Source: Nodularia spumigena CCY9414 (GTDB lineage: Bacteria; Cyanobacteriota; Cyanobacteriia; Cyanobacteriales; Nostocaceae). Taken from it: a DNA stretch of 42,183 nucleotides. The position numbers and the translations under genes are program-made. The stretch covers positions 295,572-337,754 of the forward strand of contig NZ_CP007203.1 of assembly GCF_000340565.2 (NCBI RefSeq). Direction: 5' to 3'. Below the pieces are notes generated by a model. It had not been told where the DNA came from. It made no database searches and saw only the letters and a list, made by a program, of their open reading frames with translations. Position 1 is the stretch's first letter. Every line of letters starts with the position of its first letter. Positions 13,209 through 42,183 of the stretch are shown one piece after another.

Positions 13209-13370
13209 AGCTGTATCCTTCTATCACTGCTATTATTTGTTGCTAATAACGTTCACAAAATAAAATTAGCGCCATCATTATCATTTATGCCAAAATTGGC
13301 TCAAGCGATCAATCTAACCACCCCATGCTGAATTATTCAACAGTGGGGATAACACGTTTGAGGATATGTT

Positions 13371-13778
13371 TGTCAGTAACCCAGCCCTAAAGGGACTGGG
13401 CTTGTAAGAGTAATCAAGCAAGCCGTACTGACCAGACCACCCTGAGCGCAGTCGTAAAGCCTACGGCATAGCTCCCGGCTAGGGTAGCCGTTATTTGAGT
13501 CACGACACCCTGTGGATGCGTAGCTAGTCCCCTGCTCTGTCGCTTGTGATTAAACAGTTCTAAGGTAACAGTTACAGTGTTGCAAGCCTAACAAGCTCTG
13601 ATAACAGGTCAAAGCTAACATTACTGGAACAGCAAGGCAATTCTCGGCATACAGAGAAGATGGTAAATACTGTTCCTCTATTTACCACACCCCGCAAGGG
13701 GACTGCGACTAAAGTCGCTCGTGCCGCTTCCCTCTCAGCACGCTTCGTGACTGAGTTTCCCGCATACCGTGAGGTCTT
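13371..13778 (+). ncRNA. Probable orphan IscB omegaRNA (HEARO-like structured RNA)
   Basis: This gene-free stretch is dense in hairpins. It begins with CCCAGCCC-TAAA-GGGACTGGG (13380-13400). Later stems are TGGTAAATA/TATTTACCA (13661-13669 and 13679-13687), CCCCgcaaGGGG and GCGACtaaaGTCGC. The decisive point is bases 13591-13625, starting acaagctctgataacagg and ending in aacattac, which match the 55 nt just before the iscB start at the right edge of this window (reverse strand) at about 29 of 35 positions. In IscB loci that upstream region is the omegaRNA, also known as HEARO, which carries the guide at its 5' end. Here no iscB follows; instead an unrelated gene begins at 13779. Exact RNA ends are not known, and the guide would lie at or just before 13371-13380. 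Confidence 0.65.
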
Positions 13779-14582
13779 ATGAAAACAGGTTTAAAACGTA
13801 TTGAGGCAACTTTACATGATTTAGGGCATCGTAGCACTGCCCCTAGTGATGCGGGTGATTCCTTAAAGTCGTCTTTTTCCTTTAGAATTAGCGTGGGAGC
13901 AACTGAATCAACAGCCAGTGCAGATGATAGCTCATCGGCAAAACAGACTGAGGAAGTCACTACAGAATCGCCAAATTATGATTCTGGTAATCCCAATTTA
14001 TTTCTTCAGCATGACTCTGTGCAAACCTTTCCCGCACAAGAAATTGGTGGTAAAACACCCAGCCTACCCAAATTCAAAAATCCTAGCTTCAGTAGCCATC
14101 GTCACGGGGCTAATCCGGCATTAGCAATGAATATATTGCAAGAAATTCAGCAACATATCGCCGGTTGGCAGGTAGAATTACAAACGATCTTGCAGCAACT
14201 TCAGGATATTTACTTAGAAGGTCCGATTGTTAATGGCTGGTTAGAATCCAATCTCAAAGAACCAGGACAGGGAGGAACTTCTACACTCCGACATGGGGAA
14301 GTTGTCCACCTGATGGACTATGTGGAAGAAATTTGTACAACAAATAATCAGAAAGTATCTGAGGAATCCACTCGTGCTGGTTATCGCCTTTGTGGTTTGG
14401 ATGCTTCTGGTCAAGTCTGGTCACGTCCTTGTCCATCAGAGCAATTACCGATTGTGAGTATGGCGATCGCTCGTCACCAAAAATTACGCCAACTATTGGG
14501 GCGCAAGCAGTATCTAGAAACCCGCCTGAGTCAATTGGCAGAAACTCTGGTAGTCTTACACAGTAATATTCAACAGGTTTGA
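13779..14582 (+). CDS. Hypothetical protein downstream of the omegaRNA-like region
   Basis: A 267-residue frame. The C-terminal 150 residues look like a real, helical, cyanobacterial protein (MNILQEIQQHIAGWQVELQ, then GYRLCGLDASGQVWSRPCP, then LRQLLGRKQYLETRLSQLAE). The N-terminal 115 residues are Ser/Thr-rich, low in complexity and less convincing. ATG 13779 has GAGG 5 nt upstream, inside the end of the structured RNA, so that RNA would be its 5' leader. An internal start at MNILQEI (14127) is the alternative if the element inserted upstream and supplied a new start. No family recognised. Confidence 0.7.
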   Translation: MKTGLKRIEATLHDLGHRSTAPSDAGDSLKSSFSFRISVGATESTASADDSSSAKQTEEVTTESPNYDSGNPNLFLQHDSVQTFPAQEIGGKTPSLPKFKNPSFSSHRHGANPALAMNILQEIQQHIAGWQVELQTILQQLQDIYLEGPIVNGWLESNLKEPGQGGTSTLRHGEVVHLMDYVEEICTTNNQKVSEESTRAGYRLCGLDASGQVWSRPCPSEQLPIVSMAIARHQKLRQLLGRKQYLETRLSQLAETLVVLHSNIQQV

Positions 14583-14643
14583 GTAGAACCTGAAAACGAA
14601 ATTTTACTCAAGTTGACAAATTACTGAATTGAAAATCTATCCT

Positions 14644-15576
14644 ATGCCAGATAACCAAATCTCTGCCATCATCTGTACTCACAATCGTGATACCTACTTA
14701 GGCGCGGCGATTGATAGTTTGTTGGCACAGGATTTTTCGGCTGAGTTTGAAGTTGTGGTTGTGGATAATGGGTCTAGCGATCGCACTCGTGAAGTTGTAG
14801 AACAAAGACTGGGGAATCCCCGTGTTAAATATGTCTTTGAACCTACCATTGGTTTATCTGTAGCCCGCAATACTGGCGCAAGAGTTGCGAGTGGGGAGAT
14901 TTTGGCTTATTTAGATGATGATGCTGTAGCTAGTGTTTCCTGGCTGCAAGTTTTGTCTGCTGCCTATGAGCATAACTCTCAACTGGCGATCGCTGGTGGC
15001 AAAGTTACTCTTTTATGGCCGCCCAACATCGAACCACCACACTGGCTATCTCCTGGGTTAGCTGGGAATTTAGGAGCATACGATTTAGGCGATCGCATGA
15101 TATACATTCAGCAGCCAGGTTTAACCCCTAGAGGCTTGAATTACTCCCTACGCCGCAGTTTTCTGGAGGAAATAGAGGGTTTTGACCCTCATCTCGGTCG
15201 AGTCGGAAAAAACTTACTATCTAACGAAGAACTGCAAATGACAGAATTTGCCCTCCAGCGTGGTTGGCAAGTTGCATACCTTCCCCAAGCCTTAGTGGCT
15301 CACAATGTCGCTCCCGAACGCCTCAAACGCTCCTGGTTCTTAAATCGCGGCTGGTGGCAGGGTATTAGTGAGTGCTATCGTGAACAACTGGCCGATCAAG
15401 CCGATATGGGTCAGTTACAACGGGGTAGCGAGCGATTGTTGCGGGGTTTATACAAGGCATTAAAATATTATGCCAATCCGGCAGAACGTTTTGACAACCT
15501 TGTATATGCTTATGGGCAAATAGGTTATTTAAATGCAGCTATTCAAGGCTTACTATCCACAAATAAGAAACAATAA
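14644..15576 (+). CDS. Family 2 glycosyltransferase
   Basis: A GT-A fold sugar transferase. Its N-terminus ISAIICTHNRDTYLGAAIDS is typical of family 2; VVVVDNGSSDRT and GEILAYLDDDAVAS hold the nucleotide-sugar and metal-binding acidic residues (DDD), and NEELQMTEFALQRGWQVAYLP is the usual acceptor-side region. Length 310 residues; no membrane helices, so it acts in the cytoplasm or at the membrane surface. I chose ATG 14644 (MPDNQISA) over the TTG at 14629. It likely builds an exopolysaccharide or glycolipid together with the acyltransferase gene 38 bp downstream in the same direction. Acceptor and donor are unknown. Confidence 0.9.
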   Translation: MPDNQISAIICTHNRDTYLGAAIDSLLAQDFSAEFEVVVVDNGSSDRTREVVEQRLGNPRVKYVFEPTIGLSVARNTGARVASGEILAYLDDDAVASVSWLQVLSAAYEHNSQLAIAGGKVTLLWPPNIEPPHWLSPGLAGNLGAYDLGDRMIYIQQPGLTPRGLNYSLRRSFLEEIEGFDPHLGRVGKNLLSNEELQMTEFALQRGWQVAYLPQALVAHNVAPERLKRSWFLNRGWWQGISECYREQLADQADMGQLQRGSERLLRGLYKALKYYANPAERFDNLVYAYGQIGYLNAAIQGLLSTNKKQ

Positions 15577-15614
15577 CCTGTTTCTCATGACCAATGACCA
15601 ATGACTAATAACTA

Positions 15615-16178
15615 ATGATTAATGATGAATCTTTCGTAGATTTACGTAAGTATGACCAATCCTGGTTTGATCGGGGGCGGCCAGGCTGGTATATTTTCTT
15701 ATGGTGGTTTGTGCAGGCGATCGCTTTTCCCCTGACTCCTCATTCTTGCAATAGTTGGCGTTCTACTATATTACGATTATTTGGCGCGAAAATTGGCAAA
15801 AATGTCTTAATTAGACCTACAGCCCGTTTTACCTACCCTTGGAAAGTTACCATTGGCGACTACAGTTGGATTGGTGATGATGTAGTCTTCTACAGTCTCG
15901 ATGAAATTCGCATCGGTGAACACTGCGTAATTTCACATAAAAGTTACCTTTGTACTGGTACTCATGATATTCAAGATCCTGCCTTTGGGTTGAAAACAGG
16001 AAGTATTATCATTGGTAATGGGGTGTGGGTAGCAGCAGATTGTTTTGTGAGTACAGGAGTAAAAATTGGTTCTAACGCCGTGATTGGCGCTCGTAGTAGT
16101 GTTTTTACTGATATGCCACCAGGACAGGTGTGTTGGGGAAGTCCTTGTTCTCCTCAATATGCTAGGCTGAAAAATTAG
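15615..16178 (+). CDS. WcaF-like hexapeptide-repeat O-acetyltransferase
   Basis: A 187-residue left-handed beta-helix acyltransferase. The N-terminal part (RPGWYIFLWWFVQAIAFPLT, then RLFGAKIGKNVLIRPTARF) is characteristic of putative colanic acid acetyltransferases of the WcaF group. Hexapeptide turns follow: VTIGDYSWIGDDVVF, IRIGEHCVISH, IIIGNGVWVAADCF, VKIGSNAVIGARSSV. The catalytic His sits in TGTHDIQDP. It follows the family 2 glycosyltransferase closely, so the pair probably modifies one surface polysaccharide. The interval between them contains ccaatga/ctaatga heptamer repeats. Confidence 0.92.
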   Translation: MINDESFVDLRKYDQSWFDRGRPGWYIFLWWFVQAIAFPLTPHSCNSWRSTILRLFGAKIGKNVLIRPTARFTYPWKVTIGDYSWIGDDVVFYSLDEIRIGEHCVISHKSYLCTGTHDIQDPAFGLKTGSIIIGNGVWVAADCFVSTGVKIGSNAVIGARSSVFTDMPPGQVCWGSPCSPQYARLKN

Positions 16179-40126: not shown

Positions 40127-40873
40127 TTATGCGGATAGTAAAAAGTCTTGTACTTGTGTGAATACAAGTTCTGGGTATTCTTCGTGTAGTCCCAGGGAAC
40201 CGGGAACTATGACGCTTCTGACTCCGGGTAATGCGGCTAAGGCGTTCATTTCTTGTCTCGATTTGGGGGGACTTGACTCGCCAATTACTACCATTAGGGG
40301 TATGGACAAGGATTGCACAAGTGTGAGAAAATCAGTTTGCTCTCTTACAGCATCAAGATTACCTGTGACAAAGGCGGCAGATGCAAATCTGGCTCCTGGT
40401 TTTTGCGTGGTTTGCCATTTTTTCTCAATGAAGCTGGGTGTCAGTTTAGCGTCATCTGTAAATACGTGACGGCGATACATCAATGTTAAGAAGGATCGTG
40501 TGGTGTTGAGTTTGTACAGGGCTTGTCCTATTATAGGCGATCGCACTAAACCCTTGACAAAATTCGCTATCTGTGTATTAGCTCCCATCGTTGGTAAGGG
40601 ACCGCGCCAAGTGGGTGCTATTAACAAAATTCGTGTGAACACATCAGGCTGTTTGACAGCGAGTTTTAAGACGTAAGTAGAAGCATGACCAGCAGCGACT
40701 ACAGTAATGGGAGTATTGAAGACTGTTTTGACAAAATCTTCGAGAAATTGCTGATATATTTCTGGTCGATAATTTAAACTCGGACGCGAAGATTGTCCAA
40801 ACCCCGGCCAGTCTTTGCATTTAATCTCATAAAATTGTAGTTGTCCGTAGTCAAACGTAGCTATACCCGTCAC
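40127..40873 (-). pseudogene. Alpha/beta hydrolase lacking its N-terminal part
   Basis: The readable frame gives 248 residues. DWPGFGQSSRPSLNYRPEIY is the strand-4 loop of an alpha/beta hydrolase; VVAAGHASTYVLKLAVKQPD is the nucleophile elbow, which has His in place of the second Gly-flanked Ser pattern (GHAS). VVIGESSPP and LGLHEEYPE carry the Asp/Glu and His end of the fold. The usual first 50-70 residues with the HG oxyanion loop are missing: upstream sequence up to TFDYGQLQ is the end of the iscB gene, with which it overlaps by 23 bp. The GTG at 40873 is thus only a chance start. The lost part should lie beyond the IscB element to the right. Confidence 0.75.
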
Positions 40874-42128
40874 TACAATGAACCTTAGTAATATCTTTCA
40901 TTGTTGAAAATTCAACTCTAAAACCATTGATAACAATCTCACATCCGTTTTTTGTGGGAGTTTTAACACGACTTACATACTTTCCAGAAGTTATGTTTTT
41001 ACGATCTTTGTGCAAAGTAGCCTTAACAAAATCTCCTGTAGAAACATGAGTGAATATTTTTTTAGGCTCAGTGCAAGGAAAACCAAATTTATTGATCCTA
41101 CAGAATCTTCTGCAACTATGCCCCGTGCTTTTTACTGTTAAAATTTTTGTTGTCAGTATTTTGAGAGTTTCAACTTTTCCTACACAAGCAGCATCAATCC
41201 AATGAGTTTTAGGCAATCCTAAACGAGTTCTATTAAACTTAGTTAAACCTCCTGAACCTGTTGTTATAGGTAATCCAGTTTCTTTTAACTTATTAAATAA
41301 AGCCCATCTCGTTGAATTTACAGCAGACGCATCTTTTAGTGGACGCTTGGCTTGGGATAAAATTTGCTTCAACAACTCAGGCTTTTTTGCTAAAAACTTC
41401 TCAATATCTTGAGTACCTTTTTTGATATTGCATTTCTCACAAGCTAGACACAAATTAGAAATTCTATTAGTTCCTCCTTTGGCTTTTGGTTTAATATGCT
41501 CAACTTGTAAAGGGACATTTTCCGCAGTACAGTATGCACATTTTCTATTCCATTTATTCAAAAGATATTCACGGACTTCATACCCTTGTAACTCTCCCTG
41601 TTGATACTCAAAGCCTGATATCTCCGGGTTTTCTAGCTGCTGTAGGTCAAACCTAGCAAGCTCTTGAACTATGTCAGTTATTGGGGCAAAATTACATAAT
41701 CTTTTAACCCAAGTGTTAATAGTTAAAACTCTATGGCTTAAAGAAGGTGCTAACCAACCTTGAGGTTTAGTGCGGTTAAGAAATCTAGCTTGACGATAAC
41801 GAGTATGTCTAGAACGTCTTCCTCGCCTTACTCCTTTTCGAGTTTCTAGGCTTTCTTTAATAGCTAAACCTCTGTGTTGTAATTCCATACCCCAGATGAC
41901 TTTATTATTTTGAACTAACGCAAAACCTGTAGTTTTACTCCCTGGATCTATTTTTAATTCAATCGGTTGAGTTGGAACTTCAGATTTAGGTTCTTTCAAA
42001 ATTATGGTAAATGGAAATCTTCTAAATACAGCAGCTTTTTGTTGATTTAATAAAAAACGTGCATCTCCTGGATGAATTGGAGTAAGTGGTTTTTTGTTGG
42101 TATCAAGAACTAGAACAAAATTAGACAT
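40851..42128 (-). CDS. iscB: IscB RNA-guided HNH/RuvC endonuclease
   Basis: A 425-residue IscB, the nuclease family from which Cas9 is thought to derive. Order of domains: PLMP-type N-terminus (KKPLTPIHPGDARFLLNQQK); RuvC-I with Asp61 (LKIDPGSKTTGFAL); Arg-rich bridge helix (RKGVRRGRRSRHTRYRQARF, 98-116); RuvC-II with Glu156 (VQELARFD); HNH at about 197-238 with two CxxC pairs (CAYC, CLACEKC) and catalytic His211 (VEHIKPKAKGG); RuvC-III with His309/Asp312 (THWIDAACVG); then the PAM/TAM-interacting C-terminus ending CSDGYSYV. All catalytic residues are present and the frame is intact, so it should be active. The omegaRNA lies upstream on the same strand, mostly beyond the window edge. Its 3' end abuts the truncated hydrolase. 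Confidence 0.95.
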   Translation of the reverse strand: MSNFVLVLDTNKKPLTPIHPGDARFLLNQQKAAVFRRFPFTIILKEPKSEVPTQPIELKIDPGSKTTGFALVQNNKVIWGMELQHRGLAIKESLETRKGVRRGRRSRHTRYRQARFLNRTKPQGWLAPSLSHRVLTINTWVKRLCNFAPITDIVQELARFDLQQLENPEISGFEYQQGELQGYEVREYLLNKWNRKCAYCTAENVPLQVEHIKPKAKGGTNRISNLCLACEKCNIKKGTQDIEKFLAKKPELLKQILSQAKRPLKDASAVNSTRWALFNKLKETGLPITTGSGGLTKFNRTRLGLPKTHWIDAACVGKVETLKILTTKILTVKSTGHSCRRFCRINKFGFPCTEPKKIFTHVSTGDFVKATLHKDRKNITSGKYVSRVKTPTKNGCEIVINGFRVEFSTMKDITKVHCSDGYSYV

Positions 42129-42183
42129 TTAAATTTCACCTTTTCAGGGTAATGTTTGCTTCAACCTTGTTATCTGAGCTTGT
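42129..42183 (-). ncRNA. 3' part of the IscB omegaRNA (cut by window end)
   Basis: The 55 nt before the iscB ATG start acaagctcagataacaagg and continue to aacattaccc on the reverse strand. They correspond to 13591-13625. In IscB loci the omegaRNA precedes the gene; the scaffold and guide lie outside the window. AGGTG about 7 nt before the ATG may be the ribosome site. Confidence 0.6.

Follow-up and report, generated by a model that had tools for sequence, protein, structure and literature searches.

The window, by which we mean the whole stretch of 42,183 nt that was analysed, covers positions 295,572-337,754 (forward strand) of contig NZ_CP007203.1 from Nodularia spumigena CCY9414 (assembly GCF_000340565.2). 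Comparison with empty sites in relatives revealed a 407 bp insertion at window positions 13372-13778, which separates the ATG of a gene that starts at 13779 from its old leader. The features discussed below are the following (window coordinates):

13356-13371, + strand: putative 16-nt guide, host sequence directly left of the element, belonging to the original leader of the gene at 13779
13372-13624, + strand: complete omegaRNA (HEARO) scaffold (RF02033, model positions 1-211)
13439-13473, + strand: dispersed repeat in an enlarged omegaRNA loop (search of 60 relatives, query positions 231-265)
13626-13686, + strand: type C 3' domain, a pseudoknot (covariation, 31 sequences)
13626-13632 with 13670-13676, + strand: stem s1 (type C covariation)
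13641-13645 with 13654-13658, + strand: hairpin s2 (type C covariation)
13662-13668 with 13680-13686, + strand: stem s3, crossing s1 (type C covariation)
13690-13701, + strand: s4, a small CCCC/GGGG hairpin (type C alignment)
13702-13778, + strand: right-end module, with terminus CCGTGAGGTCTT immediately 5' of ATGA (similarity search, empty sites)
13734-13755, + strand: subterminal right-end hairpin CTCAG...CTGAG (sequence, fold)
13779-14582, + strand: gene with interrupted leader (267 aa, without a match in Pfam or NCBIfam); the flanking motif of the insertion is its ATGA, and the gene's sequence continues in the empty-site relatives
40851-42128, - strand: resident IscB, 425 aa, from another element family with right flank GAC (ORF, profile, flank comparison)

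The element is absent from all seven homologous loci fetched among relatives. In five of these (G001, G002, G004, G007 and G033) the alignment passes from 13371 straight to 13777, and in the two others (G003 and G014) the break lies no more than a few bases from these positions; the seven fetched loci make up the empty-site set, and other left-flank matches of the 60-relative search lie outside it. The borders are ambiguous by 2-3 nt because TT stands on either side. Judged by these relatives, the span put forward in the original prediction (13371-13778) was almost exact. When 13209-13779 was used as a query against the 60 relatives, it split into a left flank (to 13371), an RNA core (13372-13624), a dispersed repeat (13439-13473) and a right-end module (about 13702-13779); the repeat occurs with 91-100% identity at many other sites in the relatives, separate from the rest of the element. 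As in ISC or IS200/IS605-like elements, the insertion is precise and lies beside a short fixed motif, without a long target duplication, and subterminal hairpins are present at both ends (CCCAGCCCTAAAGGGACTGGG near the left end and CTCAG...CTGAG near the right end). There is no ORF of at least 100 aa within 13371-13778: at that length the stretch is free of ORFs, as had been claimed, and the element has no Y1 transposase of its own. A promoter scan gave 2 sites against 0.9 expected.

The gene at 13779 stays open and now begins right where the element stops, in line with the claim that it uses the RNA end as its leader. The element's GTGAGGTCTT, with GAGG, now precedes the ATG, and the present effect of the element is that the ribosome-binding region of this gene has been replaced. 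A glycosyltransferase gene follows downstream and then, as the second gene after, hpsU (hormogonium polysaccharide acetyltransferase). These two genes occupy window positions 14629-16178, and the element fronts an apparent hormogonium polysaccharide gene group.

A search with the HEARO model (Rfam RF02033), proposed along with the original prediction, returned a full-length match (model positions 1-211) at 13372-13624, scoring 123.4 bits (gathering cut-off 83; E-value 3.1e-25 for the window). No iscB adjoins it, which bears out the idea of an orphan omegaRNA without its own iscB. The predicted similarity between 13591-13625 and the iscB leader at 42149-42183 (reverse strand) was recovered as well, with 30 identical columns out of 36; it is the conserved 3' end of the HEARO match. 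What had been overlooked is that the unit is a whole mobile element, that it belongs to a multi-copy nuclease-less family and that it carries a second RNA domain. The HEARO fold was assessed on 26 aligned iscB-less cores, namely 24 of the 26-core group to which the window copy belongs (see below) plus 2 from just outside. In this alignment 87.6% of cells are paired, against 28-42% when the fold is slid, and 12 pairs are altered on both sides, which 0 of 500 shuffles match; further pair types, one of five covariation measures, do not rise above the shuffles (69 of 500 reach the count), and common ancestry inflates such counts and may account for part of the fold conservation.

In IscB elements the left flank serves as guide and the right flank supplies the target-adjacent motif. 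As IscB guides sit on the 5' side of the omegaRNA, we take 13356-13371 to be the putative guide position of the window copy. Left flanks vary among the 13 copies shown and the start of the scaffold is constant, a pattern consistent with a variable guide. A genome search with the approximately 16 nt that precede the 5' edge, as originally suggested, recovered the own flank as the sole perfect match of GTTTGAGGATATGTTT and no second perfect match. At up to 3 mismatches the genome contains 65 + 59 matches, against 59 + 45 for the reversed pattern, so that apart from its own site no target is clearly above background. One candidate, which has 2 mismatches to the guide and recurs in a transposase-like gene (read in three copies), is followed by AAAGAC, but its GAC is offset by 3 nt.

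These results bear on the suggestion that the window RNA acts in trans, guiding the resident IscB to the flank of 13371 or to sites that resemble it. The resident gene is indeed intact, as claimed (40851-42128, 425 aa, undamaged), and its family has been recently active, with 14 full-length copies in the genome (424-425 residues matched, 100% identity, 425-aa frames) in addition to shorter ones. Both RNAs match HEARO and have the 3' end in common (the 30 of 36 columns given above), they are about 71% identical over positions 281-416 of the 13209-13779 query, and IscBs that are 66-69% identical to the resident one adjoin longer cores in G025:C15 and G031:C11. However, the motif of the resident family is unlike RTGA. 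Its right ends adjoin GAC in 20 out of 21 cases read (the remaining one reads GAAC, and one copy was seen twice), against ATGA for the window element. The window copy of the resident element splits a TAG-ACTGG site found in four same-genus relatives that lack the copy; this is the one clean empty-site comparison for the family, another copy having a left flank unlike the homologues. The 5' part of the resident omegaRNA also differs: it lacks the 5' GTCA stem, and the resident element opens with another hairpin. Neither motif nor scaffold therefore fits the resident IscB, and with no guide match clearly above background and the repeated 2-mismatch site out of register with GAC, the resident IscB appears an unlikely partner; we consider reprogramming of this enzyme very improbable. 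From the original interpretation, then, the HEARO/omegaRNA without its own iscB and the element end before the gene stand, and the reprogramming of the resident IscB is not supported.

Outside the resident family the genome holds a single IscB frame, which stops short at about 240 aa, besides a single weak RRXRR match (31 bits). The broken IscB would be of the RTGA type, since its RNA groups with those of RTGA-flanked elements. Given that the only IscB found outside the resident family is truncated, the window copy is probably idle as a guide at present and probably lacks a working partner in this genome.

In the window copy the place of iscB is occupied by the type C pseudoknot. In the genome collection its motif (13640-13679) turned up in 31 contig stretches, whose titles all name cyanobacteria (Calothrix, Nostocaceae, Nostoc, Cylindrospermum, Tolypothrix and Argonema). 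A HEARO match lies upstream of the motif in 27 of these stretches, at a distance of about 120 nt in two; the four stretches without such a match have merely 21-179 nt of upstream sequence. An alignment of 31 sequences (29 of the 31 stretches, the window and one diverged copy) shows compensated variants in s1 (GGAACAG/CTGTTCC, GGAATAG/CTATTCC, GGGGCAG/CTGCTCC and GGAGTAG/CTACTCC) and in s3 (GGTAA/TTACC and GATAA/TTATC). Overall, 94.9% of cells pair, compared with 41-62% for slid versions, and 8 pairs are altered on both sides, a figure matched by 0 of 500 shuffles; further pair types are not above the shuffles (150 of 500 reach the number), and the outer three s1 pairs are broken in eight rows through one common variant. 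When the window copy is folded alone its stability is modest (z = -1.8) and s1 is not formed, the program being unable to draw pseudoknots. The possibility that the 3' domains belong to a known ribozyme or Rfam family was discarded, as neither the window nor five other loci gave a match close to a gathering score. The right end of the window copy recurs in other iscB-less copies and also in the iscB-bearing elements G031:C12 and G031:C56.

How common nuclease-less elements are was estimated from HEARO matches of at least 83 bits in the own genome and 11 relatives. The sample comprised 98 matches (94 of the 95 relative matches over the cut-off, which were fetched, plus 4 from the own genome), and iscB was called by tblastn with one query, the resident IscB, when similarity started within 400 nt downstream. 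Such similarity was found for 14 matches and none was seen for 84, though 6 of the 84 reach a contig end after 40-163 nt downstream and may not reveal an iscB. The ratio of 84 in 98 applies to the longer RNA type only, because matches under 83 bits were left out; of the 23 matches in the own genome this removed 19, most of which are the 162-nt RNAs that go with the resident IscB family. By pattern, the 84 iscB-less matches comprise 44 of type A, 10 of type B, 4 of type C and 26 unclassified. One of the unclassified, L002 in the own genome, has a type A domain and no iscB, which brings type A to 45 of 84, and an unclassified element of G004 resembles type C. The type A domain has a covarying consensus fold of 30 pairs, 15 of them with changes on both sides (27 sequences). 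Neither the type A nor the type C motif was found by pattern search in any of the 14 iscB-bearing elements of the sample.

In a tree of 105 cores (branch support being FastTree's own values), the window copy belongs to a group of 26 cores, drawn from seven genomes and supported at 0.74, and iscB was seen in none of them, although 2 of the 26 are cut by contig ends. We regard the support for this iscB-less group as moderate. The next larger group contains 65 cores, 5 of them iscB-bearing, and has a support of 0.26. From the window core it is 0.40 substitutions per site to the nearest iscB-bearing core and 0.08 to the nearest iscB-less ones. Since each of the three types (A, B and C) is found with more than one core group, the 3' domains seem to have been swapped among core groups.

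An element that merely lost its iscB by deletion, and was retained because it does little harm, would also lack a nuclease. One genome, G028, seems to show such a path: its 12 unclassified elements start like the start of iscB when read by eye, two of them for a few bases only. The window copy, however, showed no iscB similarity after its core in the tblastn search, and its 3' part is a conserved fold common to 31 stretches, so that we think a plain relic unlikely. What is present at the locus is an insertion placed precisely before ATGA, with multi-copy kin that have the same ends, with RNA folds that have been kept and with no nuclease gene. We conclude, with a probability of roughly 0.8, that we are dealing with a non-autonomous member of the IscB (ISC) class of mobile elements, with an omegaRNA scaffold at the left, structured RNA in the middle instead of iscB and a hairpin at the right, which was presumably moved in trans.

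A further possibility is that the type A and type C domains are functional, by binding a transposase or IscB or by processing the RNA from a messenger, and that their carriers are specialised parasites of autonomous ISC elements and not decayed copies. It would agree with the covarying domains standing in the place of iscB, with their absence by pattern from the 14 iscB-bearing elements, with the spread of type C across several genera and with the occurrence of 3' types on more than one core group. Covariation, however, indicates a kept fold and not the role of either domain, and we regard such specialisation as possible but somewhat short of probable. HEARO RNAs over the cut-off also occur in three relatives (1 in G003, 4 in G004 and 3 in G005) for which RRXRR gave no match at all, and this weakens a present need for IscB. 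Eight Y1_Tnp matches were found elsewhere in the genome in the search for a transposase of the family, none of them linked here to the element ends.

ATGA follows the right end in all 13 copies read, one type C copy has ATGG at its right flank, and RTGA follows in 8 of 11 iscB-bearing elements judged by eye. HEARO elements reportedly precede ATGA or GTGA, with the ORF at times missing. Right ends were located with hand-made patterns in 82 of 112 iscB-less elements (30 gave none); as these patterns mostly require RTGA, the further right ends do not measure a preference for it. Among the 82, 40 abut an ORF of at least 60 codons, against 1675 of 11804 RTGA sites (P ~ 1e-13), where the baseline of 14.2% counts every RTGA site of the loci, gene interiors included, and the copies are not independent. 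One type C subgroup is contrary, with an ORF abutted in 2 of 13. By eye, the abutted genes include ruvA, gatB, cysS, psbZ, glnA, lepA and sqdB, with surE cut by the contig stretch; these names, and that of ftrC, come from reading the N-terminus and are not database-derived. A type C element stands directly 5' of an apparent glnA in two Calothrix genomes (L192 and L219) with near-identical flanks.

The position of the window element, exactly between leader and start codon and supplying GAGG, and the excess of elements abutting ORFs might suggest that the host has recruited it as a leader, so that it now regulates the gene at 13779. SD-like right ends, however, show no association with genes (22 of 40 against 18 of 42, P = 0.38), and hence we do not read the right end as an evolved ribosome-binding site; the ORF-abutting excess also fits avoidance of insertion inside genes; and the insertion is young, since it is missing at the locus from all seven fetched relatives. 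Recruitment by the host is, in our opinion, improbable.

The non-autonomous element that we favour could have spread as follows. IS200/IS605-type elements are moved as single strands by a Y1 transposase that acts on hairpin ends. Here, a single-strand transposase (Y1/IscA type) acting in trans would recognise both ends and insert the element next to RTGA. The omegaRNA would then be transcribed from the leader of the host gene, carrying that leader as its guide; insertion at start codons would place the RNA under the host gene's own promoter. With the guide in the left flank and the target-adjacent motif in the right flank, such an RNA would turn a nuclease against the empty allele: paired with an RTGA-type IscB it would single out the allele of its own site that lacks the element, which would favour the element's persistence. 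The full scenario, in which an omegaRNA lineage has swapped its nuclease for RNA domains (a three-way fold in type A, a pseudoknot in type C), borrows IscB and transposase in trans, enters ATGA start codons and has its guide made by a host promoter, is offered tentatively, as a conjecture that may well fail in part. A limited search of the literature, which included the accessible parts of PMC8730458 and PMC9755519, contained no nuclease-less omegaRNA lineage with covarying RNA domains of its own.

Transposon guide-RNA nucleases are thought to help hold an element in place by cutting the empty allele. A guide scaffold kept without the nuclease would show that the RNA itself is a shareable asset, a mobile guide minus its enzyme. 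As covarying RNA motifs located at the site of the nuclease gene, the type A and type C folds can be tested, and they provide a handle on how an omegaRNA might be excised from a host messenger or an enzyme recruited in trans.

Related RNAs were also observed on phages and plasmids. In Nodularia phage vB_NspS-kac68v162 (L264, 2501-3924) a partial omegaRNA core is followed by a 1278-bp gene annotated as HNH endonuclease and then by a small transposase gene, with an IS607-type transposase before. A Microcoleus phage (L265, 2501-3938) likewise has a partial core and then a 1278-bp hypothetical gene. On plasmid C of Trichormus variabilis (L267, 2501-4019) an omegaRNA and iscB lie between parA and parB, upstream of parB. 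The Dolichospermum plasmid pUHCC0315a (L266, 2501-2942) carries a copy that matches 79% of the window element at 80% identity, with no annotated gene beneath it and an annotated peptidylprolyl isomerase gene 59 nt further. At another locus (L210, 6579-6657, - strand) the photosynthesis regulatory RNA PsrR1 scored above its gathering score.

Four known systems may be compared with the window element. TldR is a nuclease-dead TnpB that acts with a guide as a repressor, and the resemblance lies in a transposon guide RNA placed in the regulatory region of a gene; unlike TldR, the window element has no partner protein that we could find, and its site is not common to the fetched relatives. ORF-less HEARO RNAs and stand-alone omegaRNAs have been reported before. 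With HEARO RF02033, the omegaRNA of IscB, the window copy shares a full-length match in structure and sequence, but it has no adjoining iscB and carries the type C pseudoknot instead. Autonomous IscB (ISC) elements, such as G031:C12:11859 and G002:C2:81540, have the same kind of RNA at the left end, the same right-end classes and an RTGA flank, but they contain a 1.3-kb iscB where the window copy has about 60 nt of structured RNA (about 100-130 nt in type A). Finally, non-autonomous IS200/IS605 elements of the PATE-like kind are similarly small, free of genes and bounded by ends with subterminal hairpins; the window element differs from them in retaining a complete guide-RNA scaffold.
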